In this document: positions 30,444 through 46,246 of the stretch, in pieces | Position numbering within the stretch: the stretch's first letter is position 1 | Layout: each line of letters opens with the position of its first letter | From: Neokomagataea tanensis | Lineage (GTDB): Bacteria > Pseudomonadota > Alphaproteobacteria > Acetobacterales > Acetobacteraceae | Assembly: GCF_006542335.1 (NCBI RefSeq) | Contig: NZ_CP032485.1 | Span: 2,091,001-2,155,000 of the forward strand | DNA: 64,000 nt | Direction: 5' to 3' | Position numbers and translations under genes: made by a program | The notes under the pieces: generated by a model | What the model was told of the DNA's origin: nothing | The model's database searches: none | The model's input: the letters and a program-made list of their open reading frames with translations, nothing else

Positions 30444-31796
30444 TTAGGCAGAAAGTAAATTGGCTTTTGCGTTACCAGAACGCTCCAAGTCCTCACCAAT
30501 AGCCAAAAGCTGGTCTTCACGGCCGGGTTTGGCGATCAACTGGGCGCCTAGAGGTAATCCTTGTGTAGGTATTGGAACGGTGAGCACAGGAAAGCCAGCT
30601 AAGGTTAATGGCTGGGTGTAGATACCCAAATTTGCCCGGGCGGACACCATTTCACCGTTAATATTGATAAAGGGTTGATCAAACCGGGGTGCTGGGCCTA
30701 CGACGGCAGGGGCAATCAGTATGTCCACAGTTTCAAAAGCACTATGCATAGCGCGCCTAAACCAGCTTCGGAAGCGGTGCGCTTTTGCGATCGTTGTCGT
30801 GGGGATGAGGGCACCAGCGAAGAGGCGATCTCTTACTGCTGGATCAAAATCTACCGCGTGATATTTAAGGTGTTCAAAATGTAAGCTTGCCCCTTCTGAC
30901 GCGCTAATCAGGAAGGCTGCTGCGCGTGCGCGTTCAGTCTCAGGGACAGTGATGCTGTGCTCAGCTTTTAAGGTCTTGGCCAGTTGGGCGATGGCGGTCT
31001 CCATTTCTGGAGCCATGTTTTCTGTGAACCAACCGCCAAGCCGTGCAAATCTTAGGGTGGACGTGTCAATTTTTTGAAGCGGCGAAGCGGAAAGGGCTTC
31101 GAAGCATAATTTCAAACTGCTCGCGCTGTCAGCGAAAGGCCCAACAGTGTCCAAGCTGTGAACAAAGGGGTAACTTCCAGTCGTTGGTAGGCGTCCTTGT
31201 GTGGCACGTAAGCCCCAAACCCCACAAAGCGATGCGGGTACGCGTATTGAGCCATTTGTATCAGACCCCAAACTAAGCGGGAAAAAACGCGCGGCCACCC
31301 CTGCGGCGGACCCGCCAGAAGATCCGCCGGCTAAACATTGAGCATCGTGCGGATTGAGGGTTTGGCCATGATGTGCGTTATCCGTAGCAAAGCCGTAAGC
31401 AAACTCATCCATATTGGTCATGGCTACAGGAATAGCGCCTGCATTGATTAGGCGCTCAACTAAAGTAGCATCAGTTTTTGCTACAGTATCTTGAGCGAGT
31501 ATTTTAGAGCCTGCTGTTGTGATCTGGCCAGCAACGTCGAAAAGGTCTTTGATACCAAAAGGAATGCCCGCGAGAGGTCCGGGGTCTTTTCCTTGTGCAA
31601 TCAGGCTGTCTATTTTTCGGGCGATTTCAATGGCGCGCTGGTTAAGAGTGCGCGTTGCAATATTGTACTGCCTATTGCGTTGTTGAATATCTGATAAAAC
31701 ATGCTCAACGAAGCTTAGTGCAGAAAATTCCTTTTTTTTAAGGCGCTCAGGTATTTCATGCCCTAAAAAAGACGAGGTGTTCATCAAGTTATTCAT
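30444..31796 (-). CDS. hpxY: AtzE-family amidase of oxalurate catabolism (HpxY-type)
   Basis: A 450-residue amidase-signature hydrolase. The Ser-cisSer-Lys triad is visible: K83 in GIPFGIKDLFD, S159 in AGGSSGGSA and nucleophile S183 in GSDTNGSIRVPA. The closest group is AtzE, which works in complex with a small DUF4089 partner (AtzG), and exactly such a gene lies upstream with a 4-base ATGA overlap. In Klebsiella hpxXYZ are needed to use oxalurate, the product of ureidoglycine transamination. The third member of this operon is hpxZ. The precise reaction (amide hydrolysis of oxalurate or a derivative) is inferred. Confidence 0.82.
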   Translation of the reverse strand: MNNLMNTSSFLGHEIPERLKKKEFSALSFVEHVLSDIQQRNRQYNIATRTLNQRAIEIARKIDSLIAQGKDPGPLAGIPFGIKDLFDVAGQITTAGSKILAQDTVAKTDATLVERLINAGAIPVAMTNMDEFAYGFATDNAHHGQTLNPHDAQCLAGGSSGGSAAGVAARFFPLSLGSDTNGSIRVPASLCGVWGLRATQGRLPTTGSYPFVHSLDTVGPFADSASSLKLCFEALSASPLQKIDTSTLRFARLGGWFTENMAPEMETAIAQLAKTLKAEHSITVPETERARAAAFLISASEGASLHFEHLKYHAVDFDPAVRDRLFAGALIPTTTIAKAHRFRSWFRRAMHSAFETVDILIAPAVVGPAPRFDQPFININGEMVSARANLGIYTQPLTLAGFPVLTVPIPTQGLPLGAQLIAKPGREDQLLAIGEDLERSGNAKANLLSA

Positions 31797-32754: not shown

Positions 32755-34008
32755 ATGACGATTGGTGAGCAGGTAGTAGAGCGGTGTCGTACGCTAGGCT
32801 CTGGTCGTTACTCCGAGCGTGAAGATCAACTGTTTCGTCCGTGGTTGTCACGTTCTTTTTTTGCTGTGCAGGCAACGCTGACAGAGTGGATGTTTGCTGC
32901 AGGTATGCAGGTGCGGACTGATGCGGCGGGTAACTTAATCGGCCGCTACGAAGGAACTGAGCCCAACCAGCCAGCTGTGGTCTTCGGCTCGCATATTGAT
33001 ACAGTTGCAAATGGTGGTTGTTTTGATGGAATGTTGGGCGTTGTTCTCGCCATTTCAGTTGTTGAACGGCTTGATTTAGACAAAAAACGTTACCCTTTTG
33101 CCATCGAAATTATCGCTTTTGGTGACGAGGAAGGATCTGCTTTCCCCGTCTCCATGATTACATCGCGCGCTGTTAGTGGTGAGGTCAATTCTGAAGATTT
33201 GGCCTTAATTGGGCCAACAGGAACAGTACAAAATACGCTTGCGGGATGTGGTCTAGACGGCGAGGAGCTTTCTGCGGCTGAGCGGCCTCAGGGCGATATT
33301 TTGGCATTTGTCGAAGCCCATATTGAGCAAGGGCCCGTCTTAGAGGCTTGCAACAAACCTTTGGCTGCAGTGCAATCAATCGCTGCGCAGAGGCGAGGGA
33401 CTGTAACGGTTAAGGGATGTGCTGGTCACGCTGGTACGCTTCCAATGGCTATGCGCAAAGATGCTCTTGCAGGTGCCGCCGAGGCAATTATAGGCTTGGA
33501 ACGTATTGTGAATGCTTTTCCCGGCGGTGCTGAAGGAGGGTTGGTGGGAACGGTAGGCCGACTTGTCGTGTCGCCCGGTGGCAGCAATGTAGTTGCGGAG
33601 CGCGTCGAGTTTTCACTTGATATTCGTGCTGGCAAAAAGTCTCTACGTGATGCGGCGGTTGAGGAGGTCGAAGCAGAGTTTGTTGCTTTGACAGCGCGTC
33701 GTGGGCTCGAATTAACTTGCGAGTGGCAGCAGGATTTAGAGGGTGCCCAATGCAGCCCTCCCTTGGTCGAATTGATGCAAGAAGCGGTTCGTGACGAGGG
33801 GGGATTGAACAAACCTCTCGTGAGCGGGGCTGGCCACGATACTATGGTAATGGCCCGCCGCTGGCCGTCCGTCATGTTATTTATACGCAGTCCTCGGGGC
33901 GGCATAAGCCATCATCCGGACGAGACGGTGATGAATGAAGATGTTGACGCAGCGTACCGGGCGCTATGCAGTTTTCTTGAACACTTAAACCTTAGTCAGA
34001 AGAATTAA
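32755..34008 (+). CDS. allC: Allantoate amidohydrolase (M20-family metalloenzyme)
   Basis: A 417-residue M20 peptidase-like amidohydrolase that hydrolyses allantoate toward (S)-ureidoglycine, releasing ammonia and CO2. Dinuclear metal ligands: H80 in GSHIDTV, D91 in CFDGMLG, E125/E126 in GDEEGSAF, H189 in EAHIEQGPVLE, and a C-terminal His in ISHHPDE. The family also contains N-carbamoyl-L-amino acid hydrolases, which is the main alternative; context favours allantoate. It is first of a tight plus-strand run with the aminotransferase (4-base gap), puuE and hpxW. Confidence 0.85.
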   Translation: MTIGEQVVERCRTLGSGRYSEREDQLFRPWLSRSFFAVQATLTEWMFAAGMQVRTDAAGNLIGRYEGTEPNQPAVVFGSHIDTVANGGCFDGMLGVVLAISVVERLDLDKKRYPFAIEIIAFGDEEGSAFPVSMITSRAVSGEVNSEDLALIGPTGTVQNTLAGCGLDGEELSAAERPQGDILAFVEAHIEQGPVLEACNKPLAAVQSIAAQRRGTVTVKGCAGHAGTLPMAMRKDALAGAAEAIIGLERIVNAFPGGAEGGLVGTVGRLVVSPGGSNVVAERVEFSLDIRAGKKSLRDAAVEEVEAEFVALTARRGLELTCEWQQDLEGAQCSPPLVELMQEAVRDEGGLNKPLVSGAGHDTMVMARRWPSVMLFIRSPRGGISHHPDETVMNEDVDAAYRALCSFLEHLNLSQKN

Positions 34009-34012
34009 AGCA

Positions 34013-35242
34013 ATGCCATCTATGTTTCCAGTTTTAGACATGCCGCAGCGCCTGCTGATGGGGGCAGGCCCATGTAATGTGCACCCGAGAGTGCTCCGGG
34101 CCATGGCATGTGACGTTATCGGGCAAATGGACCCTGAAATGACGGCCTGTATGGATGAAACTGCGGAGCTCTACAGACAGGTTTTCTGCACAAAAAATCG
34201 GCATACATTATTGGTCGATGGTACGGCGCGGGCAGCCATTGAGGCGGCTCTCGTATCGCTCGTAACGCCTGGAATGAAGGTGTTAGTCCTACGCATCGGG
34301 CGATTTGGTTTGCTGTTGACCGAAATTGTTGAGAGGGCTGGCGGAATTGTTTGCCCGGTCGACGTGCCGTGGGGAGAAGTCGTTCAGGTAGAAAATGTAA
34401 AAGCGGCTATAGAAGAGCATGAGCCTTCTCTTTTGGTTACGGTGCACGGAGATACGTCCACAACAACGGCTCAACCTTTGCAGGCGATTGGTGAGTTGTG
34501 CAAAGAGCACGGCATTCTTTTTTACGTCGATGCAACAGCTACTCTGGGCGGAATGCCGCTTTTGGTAGACGCATGGAATATTGACGTTGCGACCGGTGGG
34601 CTTCAAAAATGCCTTGGTGGACCACCCGGTAGCGCGCCGATTACAATGTCTGAACGCGCAGTGAAGGCCATTATGGCGCGCCGACATGATGAAGCAGGTA
34701 TTCGTGGTACTGCGCCGCAGGGGGATGGCCCTGTTATCCGCTCGAATTACTTTGATCTGGCAATGATCATTAACTACTGGTCTGCGGAGCGCATTAATCA
34801 TCATACTGAAGCCACGAGTATGCTTTATGCAGCACGTGAGGCTGCTCAAATTGCTTTGGAAGAAGGGCTAGATGCCCGGTTTTTGCGGCATAGAAAGGCG
34901 GGGGCGGCTGTCGCTGCTGGTATCCGTGCTATGGGGCTAGAGGTTTACGGTGATGACGCTTTGCGGATGAGCAACGTCACCGGCGTGTGGGTGCCCGAAG
35001 GTTGTGATGCAAACCGGGTCCGTACGTTGTTACGAACAGAGTTTGAAATCGAAATTGTTTCATCATTTGGGCCTTTGACGGGGAAAATCTGGCGTATTGG
35101 TGCCATGGGGGTCAATGCAGCGAAGCATAAGATCCTACTTACATTGGCAGCTTTTGAGGCTGTGCTGGCAGGTGAAAACGTACCTGTCGTTCGTGGTGCT
35201 GGTATTGATGCTGCGCGCGCTGCGTGGGAGGCACAGCAATAA
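34013..35242 (+). CDS. pucG: (S)-ureidoglycine-glyoxylate aminotransferase
   Basis: A 409-residue fold-type I PLP enzyme of the alanine-glyoxylate aminotransferase family. The PLP lysine is K199 in ATGGLQKCLGGPPG and the ring-nitrogen aspartate is D173 in FYVDATATLGG. In purine degradation PucG/HpxJ transfers the amino group of ureidoglycine to glyoxylate, giving oxalurate and glycine. This fits the hpxXYZ and hpxW genes nearby, which handle oxalurate and oxamate. It begins 4 bases after the amidohydrolase stop and its TAA overlaps the ATG of puuE. Confidence 0.88.
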   Translation: MPSMFPVLDMPQRLLMGAGPCNVHPRVLRAMACDVIGQMDPEMTACMDETAELYRQVFCTKNRHTLLVDGTARAAIEAALVSLVTPGMKVLVLRIGRFGLLLTEIVERAGGIVCPVDVPWGEVVQVENVKAAIEEHEPSLLVTVHGDTSTTTAQPLQAIGELCKEHGILFYVDATATLGGMPLLVDAWNIDVATGGLQKCLGGPPGSAPITMSERAVKAIMARRHDEAGIRGTAPQGDGPVIRSNYFDLAMIINYWSAERINHHTEATSMLYAAREAAQIALEEGLDARFLRHRKAGAAVAAGIRAMGLEVYGDDALRMSNVTGVWVPEGCDANRVRTLLRTEFEIEIVSSFGPLTGKIWRIGAMGVNAAKHKILLTLAAFEAVLAGENVPVVRGAGIDAARAAWEAQQ

Positions 35243-36132
35243 TGTCTTACCCGCGTGATCTCGTTGGTTACGGCGCAATACCGCCAGACCCTCAATGGCC
35301 CAATAAAGCGCGCATAGCGCTGCAATTCGTGGTGAATTACGAAGAAGGTGCTGAAAACAGTATTTTGCACGGTGATGCGGGGTCAGAGGCATTTTTGTCT
35401 GAAATGGTCGGAACCAAGCCCATTATAGGTGAGCGCTGTATGCAGATGGAAAGTCTGTATGAGTACGGTTCCAGGGCGGGATTTTGGCGCCTTTATCGCC
35501 TGTTTCAGAGTGCGGGTTTTAAAGTTACCGTTTTTGGTGTTGCACTCGCACTGGCGCGCAACCCCGATGTCGTTAAAGCGATGCAGGACGCAGAGTGGGA
35601 AATCGCCAGCCACGGTTTGCGTTGGATAGATTACCAGCACATACCAGAAGATATTGAGCGCCAGCATATAAGGGAAGCAATTGCCTTACACGAGCAAGTG
35701 ACAGGTGAACGACCGAAGGGTTGGTATCAGGGGCGGACAAGTCCGCAAACGGCACGACTGGCCATCGAAGAAGGCCCTTTTGTTTACGATGCAGACTCAT
35801 ATGCTGATGATTTGCCGTATTATGAAAATATTGGTGGCCACCAGCAATTGAGAGTGCCTTATACGCTTGATGCGAATGACATGAAATTTGCGGCCTTAAA
35901 CGGATTTACGGAAGGCGAGCAGTTTTATCGTTATTTGCGCGACAATTTCGACCAGCTTTACGCGGAAGGCGGGCGCATGATGTCCGTTGGTTTGCATTGC
36001 CGACTTGCTGGTAAGCCAGCTAGGGCCAGAGCTCTCGCCCGCTTCTTGGAGCATGTTCAAAAACATGAGCACGTATGGGTTGCAACCCGGTTGGATATTG
36101 CGAAGCATTGGTTAAAATCGTTTCCAGTATAA
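35242..36132 (+). CDS. puuE: Allantoinase PuuE (polysaccharide-deacetylase fold)
   Basis: A 296-residue hydrolase that opens allantoin to allantoate. The N-terminus YPRDLVGYGAIPPDPQWPNKARIALQFVVNYEEGAE and ENSILHGDAGSEAFLSE are the PuuE signature, distinct from the cyclic amidohydrolase AllB. The catalytic HGLRWIDYQ and the GWYQGRTSPQTARL, YDADSYADDLPY stretches follow the deacetylase-like motifs. The start ATG 35242 overlaps the preceding stop (TAATG), with GGGAGG upstream. Confidence 0.92.
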   Translation: MSYPRDLVGYGAIPPDPQWPNKARIALQFVVNYEEGAENSILHGDAGSEAFLSEMVGTKPIIGERCMQMESLYEYGSRAGFWRLYRLFQSAGFKVTVFGVALALARNPDVVKAMQDAEWEIASHGLRWIDYQHIPEDIERQHIREAIALHEQVTGERPKGWYQGRTSPQTARLAIEEGPFVYDADSYADDLPYYENIGGHQQLRVPYTLDANDMKFAALNGFTEGEQFYRYLRDNFDQLYAEGGRMMSVGLHCRLAGKPARARALARFLEHVQKHEHVWVATRLDIAKHWLKSFPV

Positions 36133-36170: not shown

Positions 36171-37756
36171 ATGCGTACTCCTGCAGCACGTAGAGGGATG
36201 GTGACTTCTCCGCATCATCTGGCCAGTCAAGCAGGGTTAGACATTTTAAAAGATGGCGGCACAGCAATAGAAGCTGTCGTTACTATGGCAGCAACTCTTG
36301 CTACTGTTTATCCGCACATGACCGGGCTTGGTGGGGATGGCTTTTGGCTTATTGTGCAGCCAGACGGACGTACTATAGCTATTGATGCCTGTGGTGCTCT
36401 GGCCATGGGTGCAGATAGAGCGTTTTATCAAGGGCACACAACTATTCCATGGCGTGGTGGCCTAGCTGCCAATACTGCTGCTGGTACGATTGGTGGATGG
36501 GAAAAGGCTCTGCAAATAAGCGCAGATATAAAGTCTAACCTACCCTTAGAACGACTGTTTCGTGACGCAATTTACTATGCGGAGGAAGGGCGTGCCGTCT
36601 CAAGCAGTGAGGCGGCGTTACTGCGTGATAAGCAGGTTGAACTTTCCGGCAACGTTCATTTTGCCGAACAATTTTACCCCGGAGGGAAGCCATTGGCTGA
36701 AGGTAGCGTCCAGACGATGCCTCAGTTGGGCCAGACACTTCGAAGCTTAGCGCAGGAGGGGCTGCGCTCTTTCTACAAAGGAGACTTGGCGCGGTCGATT
36801 GTTGAAGATTTGATTGCGTGTGGAAGTCCGGTTCGCTCGTCTGACATGGAGGCGTATGAGGCGGTTGTAAAAGAGCCACTCACGGTTGAAACGCGCCATG
36901 GGAATTTCTTTAACGCGGCCCCCCGACACAGGGTGTGGCCTCTTTACTGATTTTGGCAATTAAAGACCGGCTACCCTTGACGCAATCTAGCGAAAGCGCG
37001 GCAGCTGTGCATGGGCTTGTCGAGGCAACAAAAAGGGCATTTCAGTATCGTAATCGTTTTGTAGATGGTCGTCCGGAGAGCGACGGAAATGCTCGTGCTG
37101 TTTTGCGGGATGATACGTTTTTGTCCGAACTAGCGGCCAAAATTGATATGAAAACTTCACTACCTTGGAATGAGAAAACACAATGGGGTGACACAACATG
37201 GATGGGCGCCGTTGACCGTAACGGCTTGGCTGTAAGTTTTATTCAAAGTGTTTATTTCGAATTTGGCTCAGGCGTCTTGCTGCCAAAAACAGGGCTAATT
37301 TGGCAGAATAGAGGGTGCTCTTTCCGATTGGTGGATCAAGGTTGGAACGCACTTACACCGGGTCAAAAGCCATTTCACACGCTTAACCCCGCAGCTGCGC
37401 GGTTAAGGGACGGGCGTGTTATGGTTTTTGGTACTATGGGGGGAGAGGGTCAGCCTCAGACACAGGCTGCTTTGATAAACAGATATCTCAGCCACGGAGT
37501 TGGGCTACAGGAGGCTGTGTCTCGTCCCCGCTGGTTGCTTGGCCGCACATGGGGTGAAGAAAGCACGTCTTTAAAAATTGAGCCTGGGTTCGAAGAAGAT
37601 GTGATCAGTGAGTTGCGCCAGCTCGGGCATGATGTGGAAGAATTAGGCTCTTATTCCGACATTATGGGGCATGCTGGCGCTGTTGTTTTGCACAAAAATG
37701 GAACTATGGAGGGCGCGACGGACCCTAGGAGTGATGGGGCCGTCGCAGGGTGGTGA
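36171..37756 (+). pseudogene. hpxW: Oxamate amidohydrolase HpxW (gamma-GT family), one-base frameshift
   Basis: A gamma-glutamyltranspeptidase-family Ntn hydrolase. In Klebsiella HpxW hydrolyses oxamate to oxalate and ammonia, the last step of the oxalurate branch. The first frame (36171-36950) carries RRGMVTSPHHLASQAGLDIL and TGLGGDGFWLI; the second (from 36935) carries the self-cleavage region WGDTTWMGAVDRNGLAVSF, where the Thr becomes the nucleophile, and SGVLLPKTGLIWQNRG. Adding one C to the C6 run 36919-36924 restores FNAAPPTQGVASLLILAIK and an enzyme of about 529 residues. As read, the nucleophile subunit is not translated in frame. Start supported by AAGGAAT 9 bases before ATG 36171. 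Confidence 0.85.
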
Positions 37757-37762
37757 AAAAAG

Positions 37763-38920
37763 TTAGAGAGATTCAACAAGAATCTTACGGCTTACATCGA
37801 GCGTAACGTCTTGTTTTTCTCCAAGGGCAACCATGTTGTGTTGTTCTAGTTGCGTGATGATAGCATCGACACCGGCCTCATCGATTTCATAAGAACGGAG
37901 GGAGGCGGGGATGCCCAAGGCCTCGAAGAATGCAGCTGTCTTTTCAATTGCAGCTTCGATGCGTTCGTCGTCAGTTCCCTCATGAATGCCCCAGACGCGC
38001 TCTGCGAACTGCAGAAGCTTGAGGCGCTTGCTTTCCTTGCGGACGCGCAGAACAGCTGGAAGGATAGAGACGAGTGTACGGGCGTGGTCGATATGATAAC
38101 GAGCGGTGAGTTCGTGGCCAATCATATGCGTTGACCAGTCTTGGGGCACCCCTGCGCCGATGAGGCCGTTTAGTGCCAGAGTTGCAATCCACATGAGGTT
38201 GGACTGTAGGTCATAATTTTCGCGGTCTTTGACAATGCGCGGGCCAATATCAATGAGGCTGACCAGCAGCCCCTCGGAGAAGCGGTCTTGAGCCAGCGCT
38301 TCAGAAGGGTAGGTCAAATATTGCTCAAGGATATGGACAAAAGAGTCAGCTACCCCGTTTGCGATCTGTTTTTCAGAGAGGGTGTAGGCTTTCGTTGGGT
38401 CCAAAACGGAAAATTTTGGGAATACGAGCGGGCTGGATAGGCCTAGTTTCTCGCTTGTGGACGCTTTGGTGATTACACTGAAACTGTTCATTTCTGAGCC
38501 AGTCGCAGGTACGGTCAGAACGACACCAATTGGGAGCGCGCTGGTAATGTTTTGACCGTGCGTTTTGAGGATGTCCCAAGCGTCGCCCTCGAAATCTGCT
38601 GCAGCAGCAACAAACTTCGTGCCGTCAACGACAGAACCACCGCCTACGGCAAGAAGGTAGTCAATGTTATTGCTTCTTACGACGTCAACTGCGCGCATCA
38701 GAGTTTCAAAAGTTGGGTTGGCTTCGATGCCACCAAATTCTTCAAACTGATGGTCCGTGAGAGCTGTGCGGACTTCTTTTAATGTACCTGTCTTTTCTGC
38801 GCTGGAGCCGCCATAGAGCACCAAGATTTTTGCTGTTTTGGGGATATTGTTGGCAATTTGGGGGACTGTGCCTTTGCCAAAAATAATTTTCGTTGGATTA
38901 TAAAATTCGAAGTTTAACAT
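37763..38920 (-). CDS. yqhD: YqhD-like NADPH-dependent aldehyde reductase (iron/zinc alcohol dehydrogenase)
   Basis: A 385-residue group III metal-dependent alcohol dehydrogenase closely resembling E. coli YqhD: FYNPTKIIFGKGTV, the NADPH site GGGSVVDGTKF, LTVPATGSEMNSFSV, and the metal ligands in GVADSFVHILEQY and GHELTARYHIDHARTL. YqhD reduces short-chain and peroxidation-derived aldehydes. AAGGAG precedes ATG 38920; the frame opens at 38947. It interrupts the purine genes on the opposite strand; a role in handling glyoxylate-type aldehydes is possible but unproven. A strong inverted repeat lies upstream. Confidence 0.9.
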   Translation of the reverse strand: MLNFEFYNPTKIIFGKGTVPQIANNIPKTAKILVLYGGSSAEKTGTLKEVRTALTDHQFEEFGGIEANPTFETLMRAVDVVRSNNIDYLLAVGGGSVVDGTKFVAAAADFEGDAWDILKTHGQNITSALPIGVVLTVPATGSEMNSFSVITKASTSEKLGLSSPLVFPKFSVLDPTKAYTLSEKQIANGVADSFVHILEQYLTYPSEALAQDRFSEGLLVSLIDIGPRIVKDRENYDLQSNLMWIATLALNGLIGAGVPQDWSTHMIGHELTARYHIDHARTLVSILPAVLRVRKESKRLKLLQFAERVWGIHEGTDDERIEAAIEKTAAFFEALGIPASLRSYEIDEAGVDAIITQLEQHNMVALGEKQDVTLDVSRKILVESL

Positions 38921-38974
38921 GTCAGCTCCTTGGGAGAAGGTTTGCACGGATGTGGGATTATTTCTGAGGAATTC

Positions 38975-39002
38975 AAGGGAATTATTTGAAAATAATTCCC
39001 TT
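38975..39002. promoter_or_regulatory. 28-base inverted repeat upstream of yqhD
   Basis: Perfect 12-bp arms AAGGGAATTATT and AATAATTCCCTT around TGAA, about 55-80 bases upstream of the yqhD start. Such a long perfect repeat is likely a repressor/activator operator or an RNA hairpin in the leader. The other flank is the end of guaD. Confidence 0.55.
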
Positions 39003-39064
39003 ATTGATGTTTTGAAATTACTTTATCAGTCAAATAATATACTATTATAAATTGATAATAATAT

Positions 39065-40387
39065 TCATTCGCATTTGTCTACTTGGTGGATTTTTTCTCC
39101 GCATACATACGTGGCATGAATACTACGATCATCGCCAAGCATCATTAGTGAAAATAGAAGATCAGAGAGAGTGTCAGCACTTGATGAGCGTATGCGTCCC
39201 AGAGGGGTTGCAAAAGGATCAAGAACGCAGAGATCGGCATAATGTCCGGGTTTTATATTACCGATTTGATTTTCGAGATTCAGTGCCTGTGCGCCCCCAA
39301 CTGTCGCCAGCCATAAGCCCTGAGCAGGATGAAGCGAGGTATTGATGCCTTGCGCAACTTTGTAACCGTCTGATAAAACTTGCAGCAAAGAGAGGGTCGG
39401 TCCGGCTCCAATGTCGCTTCCCAAGCCTACTTTGACCCGTCGTTTTGGGTCTAGGGCTTTAAATAGCGGGAAAGACCCTGAACCAAGGAATTGGTTGGAT
39501 GAAGGGCAATGAGCTATGGAGCAACCCGTATCATGGCAGCGCTGAAAATCTTCTTCTTGTGCGTGTACTGCATGCGCAAGAATAGAACGGGGGCGCAATA
39601 ATCCAGCCTTGTCGTATACATCTAGATAAGAGCGACGGTCGGGGAATAATTCATTTACCCAAGCTATCTCCGCCTTGTTTTCGAGGAGGTGGGTATGCAT
39701 GAAGACTGTTTCATGCTCGGTTAGTAGTGACCCTGCGGCTTCCAGCTGCTCTTGCGTGCTAGTTGGAGCAAAGCGGGGTGTTACTGCATAAAGCTGACGT
39801 TTTTTTCCGTGCCAGCGCTGAATAAGGCTTTTAGAGTCATCGTACGCTTGTTGGGCTGTGTCGCGCAGATTGGCCGGTGCGTTACGGTCCATCAAAACTT
39901 TACCCGCAATCATACAGGCGTTGAGTTTTGATGATTCTGTGAAAAAAGCATCAACCGATTCAGGATGCACTGTGCAAAAAACTGCGGCAGTTGTCGTCCC
40001 TGAGCGCAAAAGTTCAGATAGGAACGAGCGTGCGATGTTCTGCGCATATTCTGGAGAAGAAAAGCGGGCCTCTACTGGGAAAACATAAGTATTTAACCAG
40101 CTGAGAAGTTGCTCACCGTAAGATGCGACGACTGGAAGTTGAGGATAGTGAACATGTGTGTCTATCATCCCCGCCATGACGATTTTGTTTTTATACTGTT
40201 CAAGAGCTGTGCCCTCTGGAATATTTTGGCGTGATGTATCCCATGATGAGGCAGAGATGATGCGCCCATCTTTTATAAGTATAAGTCCATCTTCTTCATA
40301 ATGAAGCGCGGACATAGGGTCTTCTGAGGTGAAAGGGTCGGAGGTGAATGTAATGAATGCGGAGCGTATAGCGAAGTGTTTTGTCAT
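39065..40387 (-). CDS. guaD: Guanine deaminase
   Basis: A 440-residue amidohydrolase converting guanine to xanthine and ammonia. Zinc ligand motifs: IDTHVHYPQ near residue 75, HTHLLENKAEI, ILAHAVHAQEEDF and the aspartate in GLGSDIGAGPTLSLL. The GuaD-specific stretches SYGEQLLSWLNTYVFPVEARF and CPSSNQFLGSGSFPLF are present. Xanthine made here would enter the ring-oxidation steps encoded on the other strand. It lies just downstream of the LysR gene on the same strand. Confidence 0.93.
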   Translation of the reverse strand: MTKHFAIRSAFITFTSDPFTSEDPMSALHYEEDGLILIKDGRIISASSWDTSRQNIPEGTALEQYKNKIVMAGMIDTHVHYPQLPVVASYGEQLLSWLNTYVFPVEARFSSPEYAQNIARSFLSELLRSGTTTAAVFCTVHPESVDAFFTESSKLNACMIAGKVLMDRNAPANLRDTAQQAYDDSKSLIQRWHGKKRQLYAVTPRFAPTSTQEQLEAAGSLLTEHETVFMHTHLLENKAEIAWVNELFPDRRSYLDVYDKAGLLRPRSILAHAVHAQEEDFQRCHDTGCSIAHCPSSNQFLGSGSFPLFKALDPKRRVKVGLGSDIGAGPTLSLLQVLSDGYKVAQGINTSLHPAQGLWLATVGGAQALNLENQIGNIKPGHYADLCVLDPFATPLGRIRSSSADTLSDLLFSLMMLGDDRSIHATYVCGEKIHQVDKCE

Positions 40388-40426
40388 GGGATCAAATACC
40401 TGAAGGAGTAGAAGCGAATTATTCTG

Positions 40427-41359
40427 TCAAACGTCACGCATGAGTTTTTGCATGCTTTCATGAAGTTCAAGAAAATGAACTTCAATTTTTTGTAAAAGCA
40501 GACGAGCCGCACTGGATAGAGTTCTTGAGCGGTCGACGCATAATGCGGCTGTAAGAGGTGTTAGTTTTTCATTAGATATATGAGTGAAAGATATTTTGTT
40601 TTCTTCAACTTCTTCCATTACATCGGCATAACTCATGATACTTATACCATAATTTTTGGATATCATTGATTTTATCATATCTATACTATCTGAAGATAAA
40701 ACTTCATTCATTGTGATGCCGGTTTCTATTTCCAATACATCAATTTTGCGACGAAGTGCTAAGGGTAGCGCAGGGGCGATGATATCGTATTCCATACATG
40801 CGCTAAAGCGTGCGTGCTTTTTATCTGCCAAAGGGTGCTCAGGGGGGGTGATGAATCCCAACGGGAATTCGATGTAAGAGCGAACGATCAGGTCACGGAC
40901 GTTACCTGGGTCAAACAATATCGCTAAATCAGCCTCTCCGCGAGCAAGGGCAGGGCCGATGTCTTTGCTATTACGTACAAAGATGTTGACGACAATTCCC
41001 GGATGAGAAATGCGAAGATTGCGGATGAGCTTTGGCATGAAGCCTCGCGTCATCGCATTTGGTATCATGATGTTAACGGAGCCTCGACGCAGCCCTTTTA
41101 GGTCGTCGATTTGTATGAGGTAGCTGTCGAGTTCTTTGCTCCAGCGTTTGGCTTGGTCCAGAAGCATTTCACCCGCCGTTGTAAGGCGAAGCCCGGTGGG
41201 TAGCCGCTCAAATAACGGGGTGCCTAAAGTTTGTTCGCCTTGCAAAATTTGTCGATCTATCGCTGATGCTGAAATTCTCAGGCTTTCTGACGCTTTGCGA
41301 ATTGACTGGTGCTGCGCCACTGCAATGAAATAGCGCAAAAAGCGTGAAAAAGCAGGCAT
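40427..41359 (-). CDS. LysR-family transcriptional regulator of the purine island
   Basis: A 310-residue LysR protein: N-terminal winged helix (SRFLRYFIAVAQHQSIRKASESLRISASAIDRQILQGEQTLGTPLFERL) and a periplasmic-binding-like effector domain. It is divergent from the Rieske oxygenase gene by 124 bp, the usual arrangement for a LysR activator and its target, and the gap contains a palindromic motif shared with the allantoin gene region. A purine or its breakdown product is the likely effector (inference). guaD follows 39 bp downstream. Confidence 0.88.
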   Translation of the reverse strand: MPAFSRFLRYFIAVAQHQSIRKASESLRISASAIDRQILQGEQTLGTPLFERLPTGLRLTTAGEMLLDQAKRWSKELDSYLIQIDDLKGLRRGSVNIMIPNAMTRGFMPKLIRNLRISHPGIVVNIFVRNSKDIGPALARGEADLAILFDPGNVRDLIVRSYIEFPLGFITPPEHPLADKKHARFSACMEYDIIAPALPLALRRKIDVLEIETGITMNEVLSSDSIDMIKSMISKNYGISIMSYADVMEEVEENKISFTHISNEKLTPLTAALCVDRSRTLSSAARLLLQKIEVHFLELHESMQKLMRDV

Positions 41360-41393
41360 GAGCGCGTTCTCTTTTTTGGAATGGAAAAGACGA

Positions 41394-41413
41394 AAATTAG
41401 ATATATCTTAGAA
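41394..41413. promoter_or_regulatory. Palindromic operator motif, copy 2
   Basis: AAATTAGATATATCTTAGAA lies between the divergent LysR and Rieske genes, 35 bases from the LysR start. It matches copy 1 (32571-32590) at 19 of 20 positions. Position and symmetry fit a LysR box. Confidence 0.65.
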
Positions 41414-41483
41414 TGGTCAGGCCGTGAAATAGTTCTTTCCACAAACTTGTCATGTTTTTGCCGCGTGTAAATGAGAGCGCCTT

Positions 41484-42524
41484 ATGTCCGAATGCCTTAA
41501 AAATTCAGTGCAGCTACCAAGAAACTGCACTTTTGAGCCTGAGGACTGGGAAATTTTGTCCCATTTTTGGTACCCGGTTGCATTGGTGCGTGAAGTTGGG
41601 GACAAACCGTTAGGCGTTACTCTGCTCGATGAAACGCTGGTTGTTTATCGTGCGGGTGACGAAATTGTCATTGCTCAAGATTTGTGCCCGCATCGGGGCG
41701 TCCCGCTGAGCATGGGGAGTGGTGACGGCAAGACGATTGCTTGTGCTTACCATGGCTTCAGGTTTGGCGAGGGTGGGAAGTGTGTGCGCATTCCTGCTCA
41801 TCCATCGGCAAACATCCCCAAAAATATGCATCTACGTAACTACCCGGTGAGAGAGCAGTACGGTTTGGTGTGGACGTGCTTGTCAGATGACGGCAGCCGA
41901 GACGTCCCTGATATGCCGCATTGGGAGGAACAGGAGTTCCAACAAATCACTTGTCCATCAATCGACATTGCTGGCTTTGCTGGCAGGCAGGTTGAAGGGT
42001 TCTTGGATGTGGCGCACTTTGCTTTTGTCCACACGGAAACCTTTGCTGATCCAAACAATGCAGAAGTTCCGTCCTATATGCCTAAATTCACAAAAGATGG
42101 CTTTGAAGCACAATACAGAAGTTCAGTCGGAAACTATCCGATTGGTGTTGATGGCAGAGCACCAGAGGGCTTTGAGTGGCTGAGGCACTTCCGCTTGTCA
42201 GTGCCTTTTACCGCGACACTCGAAATCCATTTCCCCGATGATGCTCGTCTTGTCATCATGAATGCGGCATCACCAGTCTCCGCCCGGAAAACGCGGATGT
42301 TCGCCCCCATCTGTCGTAACTTCGATAAAGAGCTGCCGGTTCAGGATGTTTACGATTTTAACTTGCGTGTTTTTGAGGAGGATCGGTTGTTGGTGGAAGC
42401 TCAGAAACCTGAATGCTTGCCGCTGGATCCGACCTTGGAAGCGCATGTCATGGCTGATAGAAGTTCCATTGCCTACAGGCGCAGTCTGAGGGATCTGGGG
42501 CTGAGTAGATTTTTTATTGCCTGA
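41484..42524 (+). CDS. Rieske non-heme iron oxygenase, purine hydroxylase candidate (HpxD-like)
   Basis: A 346-residue oxygenase alpha subunit. The Rieske 2Fe-2S ligands are C68 and H70 (CPHRG) and C87 and H90 (CAYHGF). The mononuclear iron site shows D175, H178 and H183 in FLDVAHFAFVHTETF. It is the first gene of a plus-strand run into the flavoprotein, uraD, uraH and a permease. In Klebsiella HpxDE, a Rieske oxygenase and reductase, oxidise hypoxanthine. With no xanthine dehydrogenase here, this protein may hydroxylate hypoxanthine or xanthine. No ferredoxin-reductase partner (HpxE-like) is in the window, so the electron donor must be elsewhere. Confidence 0.8.
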   Translation: MSECLKNSVQLPRNCTFEPEDWEILSHFWYPVALVREVGDKPLGVTLLDETLVVYRAGDEIVIAQDLCPHRGVPLSMGSGDGKTIACAYHGFRFGEGGKCVRIPAHPSANIPKNMHLRNYPVREQYGLVWTCLSDDGSRDVPDMPHWEEQEFQQITCPSIDIAGFAGRQVEGFLDVAHFAFVHTETFADPNNAEVPSYMPKFTKDGFEAQYRSSVGNYPIGVDGRAPEGFEWLRHFRLSVPFTATLEIHFPDDARLVIMNAASPVSARKTRMFAPICRNFDKELPVQDVYDFNLRVFEEDRLLVEAQKPECLPLDPTLEAHVMADRSSIAYRRSLRDLGLSRFFIA

Positions 42525-42597
42525 CTTTCTGCTCCCGTAATTTGCGGGAGCGCGTAAATAAGGTTTAGGGCAAATTTGTGAGTTTTTGTAAGGCGTA

Positions 42598-44055
42598 ATG
42601 ATTGTGGATTGTGGTGCAGTAGAGCGTCTGGAAGCACTTTCGGCTAGAGCTTTGGCGGATCTCGAAAAGATAGCTTACGCGAGTGGTGAGTGGTCTTTTC
42701 CGTTAGAGTATGAAGGCCAGCCTGTGCTGGACGTGGCTATTATTGGTGCTGGACAAGGCGGGCTTGCTACTGCTTTTGCCTTGCGGCGTCTGGGCATTCG
42801 CAATGTGTGTATTTTTGAGCGGGCTTCAGAGGGGGGTGAAGGTCCTTGGACGACTTTCGCTCGTATGATTACTTTAAGAACCCCTAAGCATGTGACTGGC
42901 CCAGATTTGGGCGTGCCTTCGCTTACACCTCAGTCATGGTACGAAGCGCGCTATGGCCATGATGCGTGGCAGAGCCTAGGGAAAATATCACGCCAAGATT
43001 GGCAGTTTTATCTGGATTGGCTCCGCAAGACACTTACCTTGCCTGTCAAATACGAACATCGTTTAAGTGATGTATCTTGGGAAGAGGGGTTGCTTCATCT
43101 CACTTTTGAAAGTGCAGAAGGGCTCAAAAAAGTCATCGCGCGGAAGATGGTGCTGGCAACGGGCATAGATGGCGGCGGGGAATGGTTTGTCCCTAAATTC
43201 ATCAGTAGCCAGATTTCTCCAGCGCTGTACGCGCATACGCATCAGGAAATTGATTTTTCCACTCTAGTGGGGAAGCGCGTTGGAGTTTTAGGGGCTGGCG
43301 CGTCTGCTTTTGACAATGCAGCCACTGCCTTGGAAGAGGGGGCAGCGAGTGTTGAGTTGTCATTCCGGCGCAAAGAGCTTCCCAAAATCAACCCCTACAG
43401 ATGGATGGAAAATGCGGGTTTTCTGGCGCATTTCTCTGCATTGCCGGATGTCACACGTTGGCGCTTTATGCGCCATATTTACGAATCAAATCAGCCCCCA
43501 CCGCAGGATACTTTTTGGCGCTGCAGGAAACACGCTAATTTCTCTCTTTTGGCAGGGTCTCCGTGGCTGTCGGTGAAGAGCATTAATGGTGGGCAGTCTG
43601 TTGCTGTAGAAACGCCCCATGGTGTCCGCGAATATGATTTTCTTATTATCGGAACGGGCTTTACGGTGGACTTAGCTCTCCGCCCGGAGATGAGTGCAAT
43701 CGCTCCAAAAATAGCGCGCTGGGGAGATCGTTTTGTTCCGCCGCAGGGCGAAGAGAACGCGTTGTTGTCCAGCCACCCTTATCTGGGGAGCAAGTTTGAA
43801 TTTTTACCACTTTCAGGTGGTGAAGACAGTGAGATGCTTGCATCCATTCATAACTTCACATTTGCGGCTACTCCGAGCATGGGACTGGGAGGCTCTTCCA
43901 TCAGTGGTATGCGCTTTGGGGTCGACCGTTTAGCCCGTGGTATTGCTGAAGACTTGTTCGTCCAGGATGGTGAAATGCATCTGGAGGACTTGCTGCACTA
44001 TGACACGCCCGAATTGGTAAGCTTAGACGTTCCTGAAGAAAATTGGACAGTGTGA
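42598..44055 (+). CDS. FAD/NAD(P)H monooxygenase, HpyO-type urate hydroxylase candidate
   Basis: A 485-residue flavoprotein with two Rossmann motifs: FAD site GAGQGG at residues 50-55 (VAIIGAGQGGLATAF) and NAD(P)H site GAGAS at 232-236 (VGVLGAGASAFDNAA), then FLIIGTGFTVDL. This layout resembles flavin-containing and N-hydroxylating monooxygenases, not HpxO (a p-hydroxybenzoate hydroxylase relative). Its TGA overlaps the ATG of uraD, whose substrate lies two steps after urate. Since no uricase is present, it is the best candidate for urate to 5-hydroxyisourate, the role known for Xanthomonas HpyO. No ferredoxin domain is visible, so it is unlikely to be a classical Rieske reductase. Confidence 0.7.
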   Translation: MIVDCGAVERLEALSARALADLEKIAYASGEWSFPLEYEGQPVLDVAIIGAGQGGLATAFALRRLGIRNVCIFERASEGGEGPWTTFARMITLRTPKHVTGPDLGVPSLTPQSWYEARYGHDAWQSLGKISRQDWQFYLDWLRKTLTLPVKYEHRLSDVSWEEGLLHLTFESAEGLKKVIARKMVLATGIDGGGEWFVPKFISSQISPALYAHTHQEIDFSTLVGKRVGVLGAGASAFDNAATALEEGAASVELSFRRKELPKINPYRWMENAGFLAHFSALPDVTRWRFMRHIYESNQPPPQDTFWRCRKHANFSLLAGSPWLSVKSINGGQSVAVETPHGVREYDFLIIGTGFTVDLALRPEMSAIAPKIARWGDRFVPPQGEENALLSSHPYLGSKFEFLPLSGGEDSEMLASIHNFTFAATPSMGLGGSSISGMRFGVDRLARGIAEDLFVQDGEMHLEDLLHYDTPELVSLDVPEENWTV

Positions 44056-44570
44056 TGGGCAGACTTTCCCTTTCGCAAATTAACGGTTTGCCAGAAAAAG
44101 ACTTCGTTGAGTTTTTTGGCGGAATTTATGAGCACTCGCCATGGGTCGCAAAAGATGTCGTATCACTCCGCCCGTTTTCAAGTTTTGACTCTCTGAAGCA
44201 AGCATTTGCAGAAGCTGTTGGATCAATTAGTGAAGAGCGAAAACTCTTGTTAGTGCGGGAACATCCTGAACTAGGGCAAAAGGTAGGAGTGGTTTCTAAG
44301 CTCACACCTGAATCTGCCAAGGAACAAGGCGACGCAGGGCTGGATCGATTGTCAGAGGAAGAGTTCGCGCACTTCAACGCTTTAAACAATGCTTATGCAG
44401 ACAAATTCGAAATGCCGTTTGTTATTTGCGTGAGGCAGGCGAACAAAGACATTATTTTAGCTGAAATGAGTAAACGTCTAGAAAATTCGCCTGCTGATGA
44501 ATTAAAAACAGCCTTGGCGCATATTGATCAGATTGCTTCTCTCCGGTTGCAGGATAAATTTCTCACATGA
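44055..44570 (+). CDS. uraD: OHCU decarboxylase
   Basis: A 171-residue 2-oxo-4-hydroxy-4-carboxy-5-ureidoimidazoline decarboxylase, which yields (S)-allantoin. The catalytic histidine is H70 in VREHPELGQK, followed by LTPESAKEQGDAGLDRLSEEE and NNAYADKFEMPFVICVR, all family hallmarks. ATG 44055 overlaps the flavoprotein stop and the TGA overlaps the next ATG (ATGA), so translation is coupled on both sides. A TTG at 44043 is a less likely start. Confidence 0.93.
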   Translation: MGRLSLSQINGLPEKDFVEFFGGIYEHSPWVAKDVVSLRPFSSFDSLKQAFAEAVGSISEERKLLLVREHPELGQKVGVVSKLTPESAKEQGDAGLDRLSEEEFAHFNALNNAYADKFEMPFVICVRQANKDIILAEMSKRLENSPADELKTALAHIDQIASLRLQDKFLT

Positions 44571-44899
44571 GTTCAATATCAACCCACGTTTTGGATACTG
44601 TTAGTGGAAAACCGGCGGTGGCCGTGGCCTTACGTTTGTGGGCGGGGGAGAGGCTTGTTTTTTCAGGACACACAAATGAAGACGGGCGATGCCCAGCTAT
44701 TAGAGAGCTAGAACTGTCTGCCGGGAAGTATAAGATTGAGTTCGATGTGGGTGAGTATTTTCTTCAGAAACATTACTCAGTAAGCGAACCGCTTTTTCTG
44801 GATGTTATACCAATTGCTTTTGGTCTCTCGGCAGAGGGGCATGTCCATGTCCCTTTGCTGGTCGCACCGCACGGCTATTCAACGTATCGTGGAAGTTAG
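44567..44899 (+). CDS. uraH: 5-hydroxyisourate hydrolase (transthyretin-like)
   Basis: A 110-residue HIU hydrolase acting before UraD. Signatures are the N-terminal STHVLDTVSGKPA with H7, the internal GRC/ELSAGKYKIEF strand, and the C-terminal HVHVPLLVAPHGYSTYRGS with the invariant YRGS end. Overlaps uraD by 4 bases. Confidence 0.95.
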   Translation: MSSISTHVLDTVSGKPAVAVALRLWAGERLVFSGHTNEDGRCPAIRELELSAGKYKIEFDVGEYFLQKHYSVSEPLFLDVIPIAFGLSAEGHVHVPLLVAPHGYSTYRGS

Positions 44900-44905
44900 A
44901 AAATC

Positions 44906-46246
44906 ATGTCAAACGAAGCGGCCACGATGTCAGTGACAAAGCATCCGGTAGACCAACTTCCTTCTTGGTGGAAAACATTCGCTTTCGGACTGCAGCATGT
45001 CCTGACGTTCTACGCAGCAGCTGTCGCGGTGCCAATTTTATTAGCAAGCGCGCTCAAGTTGCCAAGGGACGTTTTAGAACACCTCATTAGTGCTGATCTT
45101 TTCACATGCGGAATAGCTTCGCTTATTCAGGCTGTGGGTATAGGCAAAATCGGGGTCAAACTTCCGTTGCTTCAAGGTGTCTCGTTTACAGCTCTGGCTC
45201 CGATGATAGCCATTGGCGCTGCAGGTCACGGCGGGGTTGAAGGGCTACGCGATGTTTACGGAGCTGTCATTGCGTCAGGTATAATTACGTTCTTTATCGC
45301 GCCGTGGTTTGCCAAGCTGGCACGGTTTTTACCGCCAGTCGTAACCGGTACGGTCATTTTAGTGATCGGGATAACGCTTTTACCGGTCGCCACGAACGAT
45401 ATTTTTGCAGATAGTGTTGTTGTTTCGGGGCATGGTTATTTAAAAGGCCTTTATTACGGTATTGGTACTTTATTGTTCATCTTATTAATACAGAAATTTG
45501 GAAAAGGGTTTATTGCTAGTATTGCCGTTTTGATAGGTCTTATTTGTGGAACATTATGTGCATGGTTGTTGGGGGATGCGCATTTTTCAGACGTATTGCA
45601 GGCTAATAACTTTTCTGTAACAACACCTTTCCACTTCGGGTTGCCGAGTTTTCACTTTTTGCCGATATTATCTATTACCATCGTAATGATGGTAAGCCTC
45701 ATGGAAACATGCGGAAACCTCTACGCTGTTGGTGAAATTGTTGATCGGCCAATAGAGCAAAAGGACATTGTCAGCGCTGTTCGCGCTGATGGTCTGGCAA
45801 CGTTTTTGGGAGGAATTTTTAACTCTTTTCCTTACACGTGTTTTGCAGAAAATGTTGGGTTGGTCCGTATTACCCAAGTTAAAAGCCGATGGGTTGTGGC
45901 TTGCGCGGCCTGTATTATGATCGTGCTCGGCTGTATACCCAAGCTTTCAGCAGTGGTCGCAGGCATTCCCCTTGCCGTTTTAGGCGGGGCTTCACTGGCT
46001 ATGTTCGCAGCAGTCGCAGTGGTAGGGGTCCAAATGCTTTCTAAGGCGCAGTTGGATAAGCCAAATAATGTGATCATTGTCGGGACTAGTCTTGCATTAT
46101 CATCCCTGATGACCACACAGCCGCACGTGATATCTGACTTTCCACAATGGGCGCAGGTTGTGTTTGGTAGTGGTATCCCCGTTGGAGCGTTTACAGCTTT
46201 GCTATTACATATCTTGTTTAACTGCTTTGGAAAAAAAGAGGCTTGA
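44906..46246 (+). CDS. NCS2-family purine (urate/xanthine) permease
   Basis: A 446-residue transporter of the nucleobase-cation symporter 2 family with about 12-14 membrane segments. Conserved features include FGLQHVLTFYAAAVAVPILL, LPLLQGVSFTALAPM, the acidic motif in VSLMETCGNLYAVGEIVDRPI and FPYTCFAENVGLVRITQV. Position at the end of the uraD-uraH run suggests uric acid or xanthine as substrate. A terminator follows. Confidence 0.9.
   Translation: MSNEAATMSVTKHPVDQLPSWWKTFAFGLQHVLTFYAAAVAVPILLASALKLPRDVLEHLISADLFTCGIASLIQAVGIGKIGVKLPLLQGVSFTALAPMIAIGAAGHGGVEGLRDVYGAVIASGIITFFIAPWFAKLARFLPPVVTGTVILVIGITLLPVATNDIFADSVVVSGHGYLKGLYYGIGTLLFILLIQKFGKGFIASIAVLIGLICGTLCAWLLGDAHFSDVLQANNFSVTTPFHFGLPSFHFLPILSITIVMMVSLMETCGNLYAVGEIVDRPIEQKDIVSAVRADGLATFLGGIFNSFPYTCFAENVGLVRITQVKSRWVVACAACIMIVLGCIPKLSAVVAGIPLAVLGGASLAMFAAVAVVGVQMLSKAQLDKPNNVIIVGTSLALSSLMTTQPHVISDFPQWAQVVFGSGIPVGAFTALLLHILFNCFGKKEA

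Follow-up and report, generated by a model that had tools for sequence, protein, structure and literature searches.

The closest described relatives of the locus discussed here are the hpx cluster of Klebsiella and, for one of its enzymes, the HpyO protein of Xanthomonas. The locus itself is a purine-oxidation gene cluster of the acetic acid bacterium Neokomagataea tanensis (GCF_006542335.1; two contigs, 2,577,002 bases, 100% complete), and it lies in a stretch of 64,000 nucleotides of contig NZ_CP032485.1 (positions 2,091,001 to 2,155,000), referred to below as the window. The Klebsiella cluster has the order uraH-uraD-NCS2-hpxO-hpxR-hpxD-hpxE, and hpxDE of K. pneumoniae is described as being involved in both oxidative steps that lead from hypoxanthine through xanthine to urate (PMC7373994); HpyO of Xanthomonas is described as an FAD/NAD(P)H urate hydroxylase belonging to a family other than HpxO (PMC4562309). 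Genes of these kinds also lie together in the window: as in Klebsiella, an HpxD-type Rieske oxygenase, controlled by a divergently encoded LysR regulator that resembles HpxR, is accompanied by a urate hydroxylase (here a candidate), uraD, uraH, and an NCS2 permease. The window departs from Klebsiella in that no HpxE was found in it or in the genome, and in that a class B flavoprotein, unrelated to HpxO, takes the place of that enzyme. A preliminary description of this DNA had suggested a distinct oxygen-dependent purine route; the comparison points instead to the hpx route of Klebsiella, changed in its urate hydroxylase and without HpxE, and we consider the locus to be a molybdenum-free version of that pathway, with a probability of roughly 0.8. 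The HpxD oxygenase is the known part of this system, and the new part is the different urate hydroxylase together with the lack of a detectable HpxE, in a lineage without MoaC; no description of this combination was found in a literature search whose coverage excluded most subscription journals.

The Rieske protein is, judged by its sequence, an HpxD orthologue. It is 61.6% identical to K. pneumoniae HpxD over 336 amino acids (E 1e-159), a match found among annotated plasmid records, where matches annotated as hpxD reach 61.6%. In a tree of 45 rows, 39 HpxD rows, those of Klebsiella and the window included, form a group with 100/100 support, with six further Rieske proteins from the family outside it and no NdmA row in the tree. 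Residues C68/H70/C87/H90, D175/H178/H183, and D300 are invariant across 23 HpxD rows, which leaves the presumed iron ligands intact, their Rieske and mononuclear iron roles being those that we assume from the motifs. Within the tree, the window protein groups with those of the other Neokomagataea and then with three rows that all belong to a single further genus of the family (100/98). We set aside the possibility that Neokomagataea gained HpxD horizontally, as the tree places this HpxD among those of other acetic acid bacteria, and vertical descent would be the simpler account. Two further hpxD orthologues (L124 and L126, from genomes G100 and G157) adjoin a homologue of guanine deaminase (44% identity), with no LysR gene found beside them.

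The closest solved structures to the Rieske protein are SxtDIOX/SxtT and the methylxanthine demethylases NdmA/NdmB, and this ranking, together with the plausibility of a flower niche for Neokomagataea, favours the idea that the protein is a demethylase of the NdmA/NdmB kind, acting on methylxanthines or other N-heterocycles, in an operon devoted to plant methylxanthines. We regard this as extremely unlikely, given that the fold alignment with NdmA/NdmB yields 26-28% identity as against 61.6% to HpxD, that the protein falls inside the HpxD clade of a tree lacking an NdmA row, and that every other gene of the operon is assigned a step of ordinary purine metabolism. The AlphaFold model of the Rieske protein is mediocre (pLDDT 68.9), and its fold search merely repeats the sequence result. 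The preliminary description had left the substrate open; since the protein is an HpxD orthologue, and since hpxDE is described for both hypoxanthine and xanthine (PMC7373994), the question is likely not really open, and the enzyme is likely a molybdenum-free hydroxylase of hypoxanthine and xanthine. Another option would be that HpxD performs only the first of these oxidations, from hypoxanthine to xanthine, leaving xanthine to be converted to urate by an unrecognised enzyme such as an alpha-ketoglutarate-dependent xanthine hydroxylase. Fungal Fe/alpha-ketoglutarate xanthine hydroxylases provide a precedent, and 2-oxoglutarate dioxygenases occur near the hpx genes of two Pseudomonas putida plasmids; this division of labour nevertheless seems unlikely to us, in view of the description of hpxDE for both steps and of the finding that no such gene is present among the assigned genes of the 30-46 kb region to which the search was limited.

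The other Neokomagataea genomes bear on the same question, namely which enzyme oxidizes hypoxanthine and xanthine. The xanthine dehydrogenase (XDH) domain PF02738 (MoCoBD_1) was not found in any of four Neokomagataea genomes (that of the window and three congeners), and is present in 182 of 200 Acetobacteraceae genomes, the same model matching 5 of 14 named control genomes. MoaC, the molybdenum cofactor gene that was searched for, is likewise missing from these four genomes and present in 174 of the 200. In a GTDB-genus sample of 11 genomes, XdhA, XdhB, and XdhC were found in seven of the eight that remain besides the window genome (G000) and its Neokomagataea relatives G054 and G131; these seven had been chosen by a Fer2 match in a frame of about 500 amino acids, and the eighth, G499, was without such a match. 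HpxD orthologues (at least 53% identity) are carried by 24 of the 200 family genomes. Among the 18 genomes negative for PF02738, five contain the flavoprotein (at 1e-60), all five together with HpxD, and the other 13 contain neither; the five are the four Neokomagataea and Acetobacteraceae bacterium KSS8 (G056), in which hpxD and the flavoprotein gene are on separate contigs, so that the pairing of the two exists in two gene arrangements. The proposal of the preliminary description that the Rieske protein replaces XDH thus gains from both the HpxD orthology and the pattern of PF02738, and the HpxD-type Rieske oxygenase very probably stands in for XDH in Neokomagataea.

The flavoprotein is, as our best call, a predicted FAD- and NAD(P)H-dependent urate hydroxylase of a non-HpxO type, an assignment for which we rely on the context of uraD, uraH, and puuE, on a fusion with UraD, and on a SidA/PvdA-like monooxygenase fold. 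The HpxO model gives it 18.2 bits against a cut-off of 500, which places it outside the HpxO family (FAD_binding_3), and the alignable stretch with Klebsiella HpxO is only 35 amino acids long; its AlphaFold model (pLDDT 87.5) finds its top matches in the Protein Data Bank in PvdA/SidA (E 6e-20, TM about 0.6), which are N-hydroxylating monooxygenases. In the best 80 of 101 loci from acetic acid bacteria, uraD, uraH, and puuE each lie within 10 kb of the flavoprotein gene in 70, and eight of the remaining ten are interrupted by a contig end; XdhB is within 10 kb in 37 of the 80 (partial in L039 and L050), but not in L001-L003, the loci of the other three Neokomagataea. One relative, P0235, is a natural UraD-flavoprotein fusion. 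Another, P0207, is 705 amino acids long, with the flavoprotein region apparently partly doubled. Four JGI and some UniRef/NCBI entries among the homologues listed are named FAD-dependent urate hydroxylase, a name that we take to be derived from HpyO, since similarity to HpxO cannot explain it; other names are SidA/IucD/PvdA monooxygenase and CzcO-like flavoprotein. The likeness between the flavoprotein and HpyO is one of description and homologue names, and no Xanthomonas protein was among the best 120 matches of a search that started from a 54% relative. More widely, homologues occur in 13 of 299 Pseudomonadota genomes at 1e-30, the window genome included, at 17 places outside the window, 16 of them with wider flanks, among which only L194 showed a weak PuuE match; of 335 matching plasmid records, the three that were inspected have, respectively, an XDH-family gene beside the homologue, a PuuE-like gene with 8-oxoguanine deaminase, and no purine genes.

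Neither uricase (PF01014) nor PuuD (PF06181) was found in the 11 genomes of the GTDB-genus sample, that of the window included, the two models matching 2 and 1 of the 14 named control genomes, and HpxO, for which the search covered the window and the compared loci rather than the whole genome, was not found in the window. The genome check that the preliminary description had called for, on xdh, uricase, and HpxE, thus returned none of PF02738, PF01014, PF06181, or an HpxE homologue, and its suggestion that a non-HpxO flavoprotein makes 5-hydroxyisourate is borne out, from fold and gene context, to the extent that the protein is a candidate urate hydroxylase. The position of the flavoprotein gene directly after hpxD allows a different view, that its product serves the Rieske oxygenase as the NAD(P)H reductase otherwise missing, and is not, or not only, a urate hydroxylase. 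Such a role would account for the absence of HpxE, and it accords with two Burkholderiaceae plasmids in which hpxD is followed by a rubredoxin and an FAD oxidoreductase, indicating that HpxD partners vary, as well as with one close homologue of the flavoprotein (P0163) that its source names ferredoxin--NADP reductase. A reductase would, however, be hard to square with the SidA/PvdA-like hydroxylase fold, with the UraD fusion, and with the 77 of 80 flavoprotein loci that have no hpxD in their stretch, many with XDH genes instead; it would also leave the genome without a urate oxidase of the families searched, and we hold it to be very improbable.

As no HpxE was found, we propose that HpxD may draw on a housekeeping electron chain. 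The preliminary description had seen no Rieske reductase beside the oxygenase gene, and this extends to the genome: an acetic-acid-bacterial HpxE (adjoining hpxD in L115, L116, L118, and L119, and about 42% identical to Klebsiella HpxE), which matches 57 of the 200 family genomes at 1e-20, found no homologue in the window genome at E 0.1, and Klebsiella HpxE found no match across the 64 kb window. The genome contains one protein with PF00111, the Isc ferredoxin, whose gene adjoins cysteine desulfurase genes, and one with PF00175, which is ferredoxin-NADP reductase-like; the PF00111 (Fer2) result is the telling one, because PF00111, and not PF00175, detects Klebsiella HpxE. The same description had called the gene combination, with no Rieske reductase, unusual; in the wider sample, a missing adjacent reductase is not confined to this operon. 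Among the 24 HpxD-bearing Acetobacteraceae, four have an adjacent HpxE, eight encode only more distant relatives of it (33-46%), and in 12 nothing matches at 1e-20; in the 39 HpxD rows of the tree HpxE is adjacent in 11, a rubredoxin with an FAD oxidoreductase in 2, and no HpxE is adjacent in 26 (L153 nearly duplicates L115, and rubredoxin is visible only in annotated records). In L151, an HpxE-like open reading frame of 33% identity lies about 7 kb from hpxD.

Plasmids show how the surroundings of hpxD vary. As in the window, the P. putida plasmids pPp1290 and pKF715A have a flavin urate hydroxylase gene straight after hpxD and no adjacent hpxE, but they differ in using HpxO, and pPp1290 has a 33% HpxE-like frame about 7 kb away. 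In Caballeronia and Paraburkholderia plasmids (L199 and L202), hpxD is followed by genes for a rubredoxin and an FAD oxidoreductase. This pair, a possible alternative redox chain for HpxD, indicates that neighbours other than HpxE could supply electrons and that the likely partner is there encoded alongside, unlike in the window, where no electron partner lies alongside hpxD. HpxD thus appears, from these gene neighbourhoods, to change redox partners among bacteria.

Conservation among the closest relatives, N. anthophila, N. thailandica, and a Neokomagataea metagenome-assembled genome, argues that the locus is maintained by selection. All three share the arrangement of the window, and across ten genes the 4-fold degenerate sites are only 24-39% identical between the window and these relatives, which is near saturation, whereas the Rieske protein remains 92-93% and the LysR protein 91-92% identical; this difference indicates selection on the locus rather than chance. 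By comparison, PuuE and the aminotransferase retain 85-89% identity, the flavoprotein 70-73%, and UraD 53-55%, so that HpxD and its LysR are the most constrained of the ten genes compared.

The LysR regulator and its promoter region connect hpxD with the flavoprotein beyond this genus. A clade of 33 rows (99/96) unites the window LysR with LysR proteins of acetic acid bacteria whose genes adjoin either hpxD or the flavoprotein gene, the latter from Gluconobacter and Acetobacter; outside it, the LysR of KSS8 (L125) joins at 91/73, and the plasmid-encoded rows from other bacteria branch off at a greater distance (branching order within the clade is unresolved, and L046 dropped out). In the divergent promoter, the 15-mer TTAGATATATCTTAG, 37 nt from the LysR gene, is identical in all four Neokomagataea, and a GATATAT core occurs at an offset of 33-40 in 9 of 15 other hpxD promoters; L125, L152, and L157 were excluded from the reference set of hpxD promoters used for the whole-region comparison, L125 and L152 showing no element. 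When whole regions are compared, the first 20 nt being left out and the shuffles preserving base content only, each of 24 chosen flavoprotein promoters resembles some hpxD promoter, no more than 3 in 100 shuffles doing equally well. These 24 promoters, and the 17 flavoprotein-adjacent LysR loci, were picked by hand from a larger set with a divergent LysR. Single-motif tests are weaker, the match of the Neokomagataea LysR box in flavoprotein promoters being mostly not significant and a matrix from ten hpxD sites picked by eye being equalled by at most 7 of 500 shuffles for 7 of the 24, so that only the whole-region comparison is clear. Taken together, related LysR proteins and related promoters beside both genes suggest that hpxD and the flavoprotein genes belong to one regulon across genera.

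For the pathway as a whole, we infer the enzyme activities, the substrate, and the electron donor as follows. Purines would enter through the NCS2 permease, GuaD would convert guanine to xanthine, the HpxD-type Rieske oxygenase would use O2 to take hypoxanthine and xanthine to urate, and the class B flavoprotein would use NAD(P)H and O2 to take urate to 5-hydroxyisourate, after which UraH, UraD, PuuE, the allantoate amidohydrolase, and the aminotransferase would carry out the downstream steps, the operon being controlled by the HpxR-like LysR from the conserved divergent promoter. Neokomagataea would have lost XDH and, on the evidence of MoaC, the ability to make molybdenum cofactor, and would depend on HpxD, whose electrons would most likely come, at about even odds, from the ferredoxin-NADP reductase and the Isc [2Fe-2S] ferredoxin. 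The fuller proposal, of a two-oxygenase pathway without molybdenum cofactor synthesis in which HpxD, as a plug-in oxygenase that swaps partners, is fed by this housekeeping pair, is a tentative one whose chances we put a little short of even.

Several observations weigh against this reading of the locus. Some PF02738 protein is also carried by 19 of the 24 HpxD-bearing genomes, so that a simple replacement of XDH by HpxD does not hold throughout; the loss of cofactor synthesis is read from the absence of MoaC, the one gene of that pathway searched for; and HpxD has been characterised together with HpxE, so that without the reductase it might do something else. On the side of the flavoprotein, two Acetobacter loci with full flanks (L036 and L040) have the arrangement LysR-flavoprotein-permease with no uraD, uraH, or puuE within 10 kb, homologues of 38-48% identity have no uraD or uraH nearby in 16 neighbourhoods, and there is the reductase name of P0163 given above. 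As regards the electron chain, the ferredoxin-NADP reductase call lies below the model cut-off (161 against 390 bits), Klebsiella HpxE is not among the PF00175 matches at 1e-5, and the reductase search of the genome omitted rubredoxins, ferredoxin reductases of the glutathione-reductase type, and small Rieske ferredoxins, which leaves the set of candidate donors incomplete.

Table 1. Genes and other features of the purine-oxidation locus and its surroundings, in positions of the window.
Feature	Position	Strand	Remarks
AtzE-family amidase	30444-31796	-	TIGR02715 538 bits vs cut-off 426; presumably HpxY-like
Allantoate amidohydrolase	32755-34008	+	NF006775 514 bits vs cut-off 479
Class V aminotransferase	34013-35242	+	Pfam Aminotran_5; no NCBIfam model above cut-off; presumably of the ureidoglycine-glyoxylate type, HpxJ/PucG-like
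PuuE allantoinase	35224-36132	+	TIGR03212 514 bits vs cut-off 425
Gamma-glutamyltransferase-like, two frames	36171-37756	+	PF01019 in each half; presumably HpxW-like / oxamate-amidohydrolase-like
Iron-containing alcohol dehydrogenase	37763-38947	-	between the allantoin branch and guaD
GuaD guanine deaminase	39065-40387	-	TIGR02967 570 bits vs cut-off 375; predicted xanthine supply
HpxR-like LysR regulator, divergent	40427-41359	-	36.6% identity to K. pneumoniae HpxR
Divergent promoter region	41360-41483	none	candidate LysR box TTAGATATATCTTAG at 41397-41411
HpxD-type Rieske non-heme iron oxygenase, 346 aa	41484-42524	+	Pfam Rieske + VanA_C
Two-Rossmann flavoprotein, 485 aa	42598-44055	+	predicted class B monooxygenase, SidA/PvdA-like fold
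UraD, OHCU decarboxylase	44055-44570	+	TIGR03164 176 bits vs cut-off 96
UraH, 5-hydroxyisourate hydrolase	44567-44899	+	TIGR02962 105 bits vs cut-off 87
NCS2 purine permease, PbuX subfamily	44906-46246	+	TIGR03173 484 bits vs cut-off 414

The arrangement of the genes (Table 1) agrees in part with the preliminary description, which had the genes from LysR to the permease run together with overlapping starts. The genes are contiguous, and the Rieske, flavoprotein, uraD, uraH, and NCS2 genes do form the operon, but this starts at the Rieske gene, with LysR and guaD divergent and outside it, and the only overlaps are those between the flavoprotein and uraD genes (TGATG) and between uraD and uraH; the Rieske and flavoprotein genes are separated by 73 nt, and uraH and the permease gene by 6 nt. 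The start of uraD is taken as the ATG at 44055, the open reading frame opening with a TTG at 44043. The neighbours named in that description, guaD and the allantoin branch (32755-36132, just upstream of the purine-oxidation locus), are where it had placed them, whereas its left boundary, 38920, cuts into the end of the alcohol dehydrogenase gene, for which no counterpart was found in the stretches from the other Neokomagataea (L001-L003). The gamma-glutamyltransferase-like gene, which is broken in the strain of the window, is a single frame in the same three stretches, and its two frames reflect either a strain-specific frameshift or a sequence error. A search of the 30-48 kb region at E up to 1 gave no match to the xanthine (NMT1) riboswitch or any other Rfam family.

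Neokomagataea would represent a natural case of purine catabolism that has outlasted XDH and, to judge from MoaC, the synthesis of molybdenum cofactor, and this loss would explain why an iron-only hydroxylase is kept under strong selection. The case makes testable the question of what reduces HpxD where HpxE seems to be missing, as it does in 12 of the 24 HpxD-bearing Acetobacteraceae sampled, and it draws attention to a widespread protein family, SidA-like in fold, whose members are candidate urate hydroxylases and which is relevant to urate-degrading enzymes. Neokomagataea is, in this respect, a clean case for finding the redox partner of HpxD.

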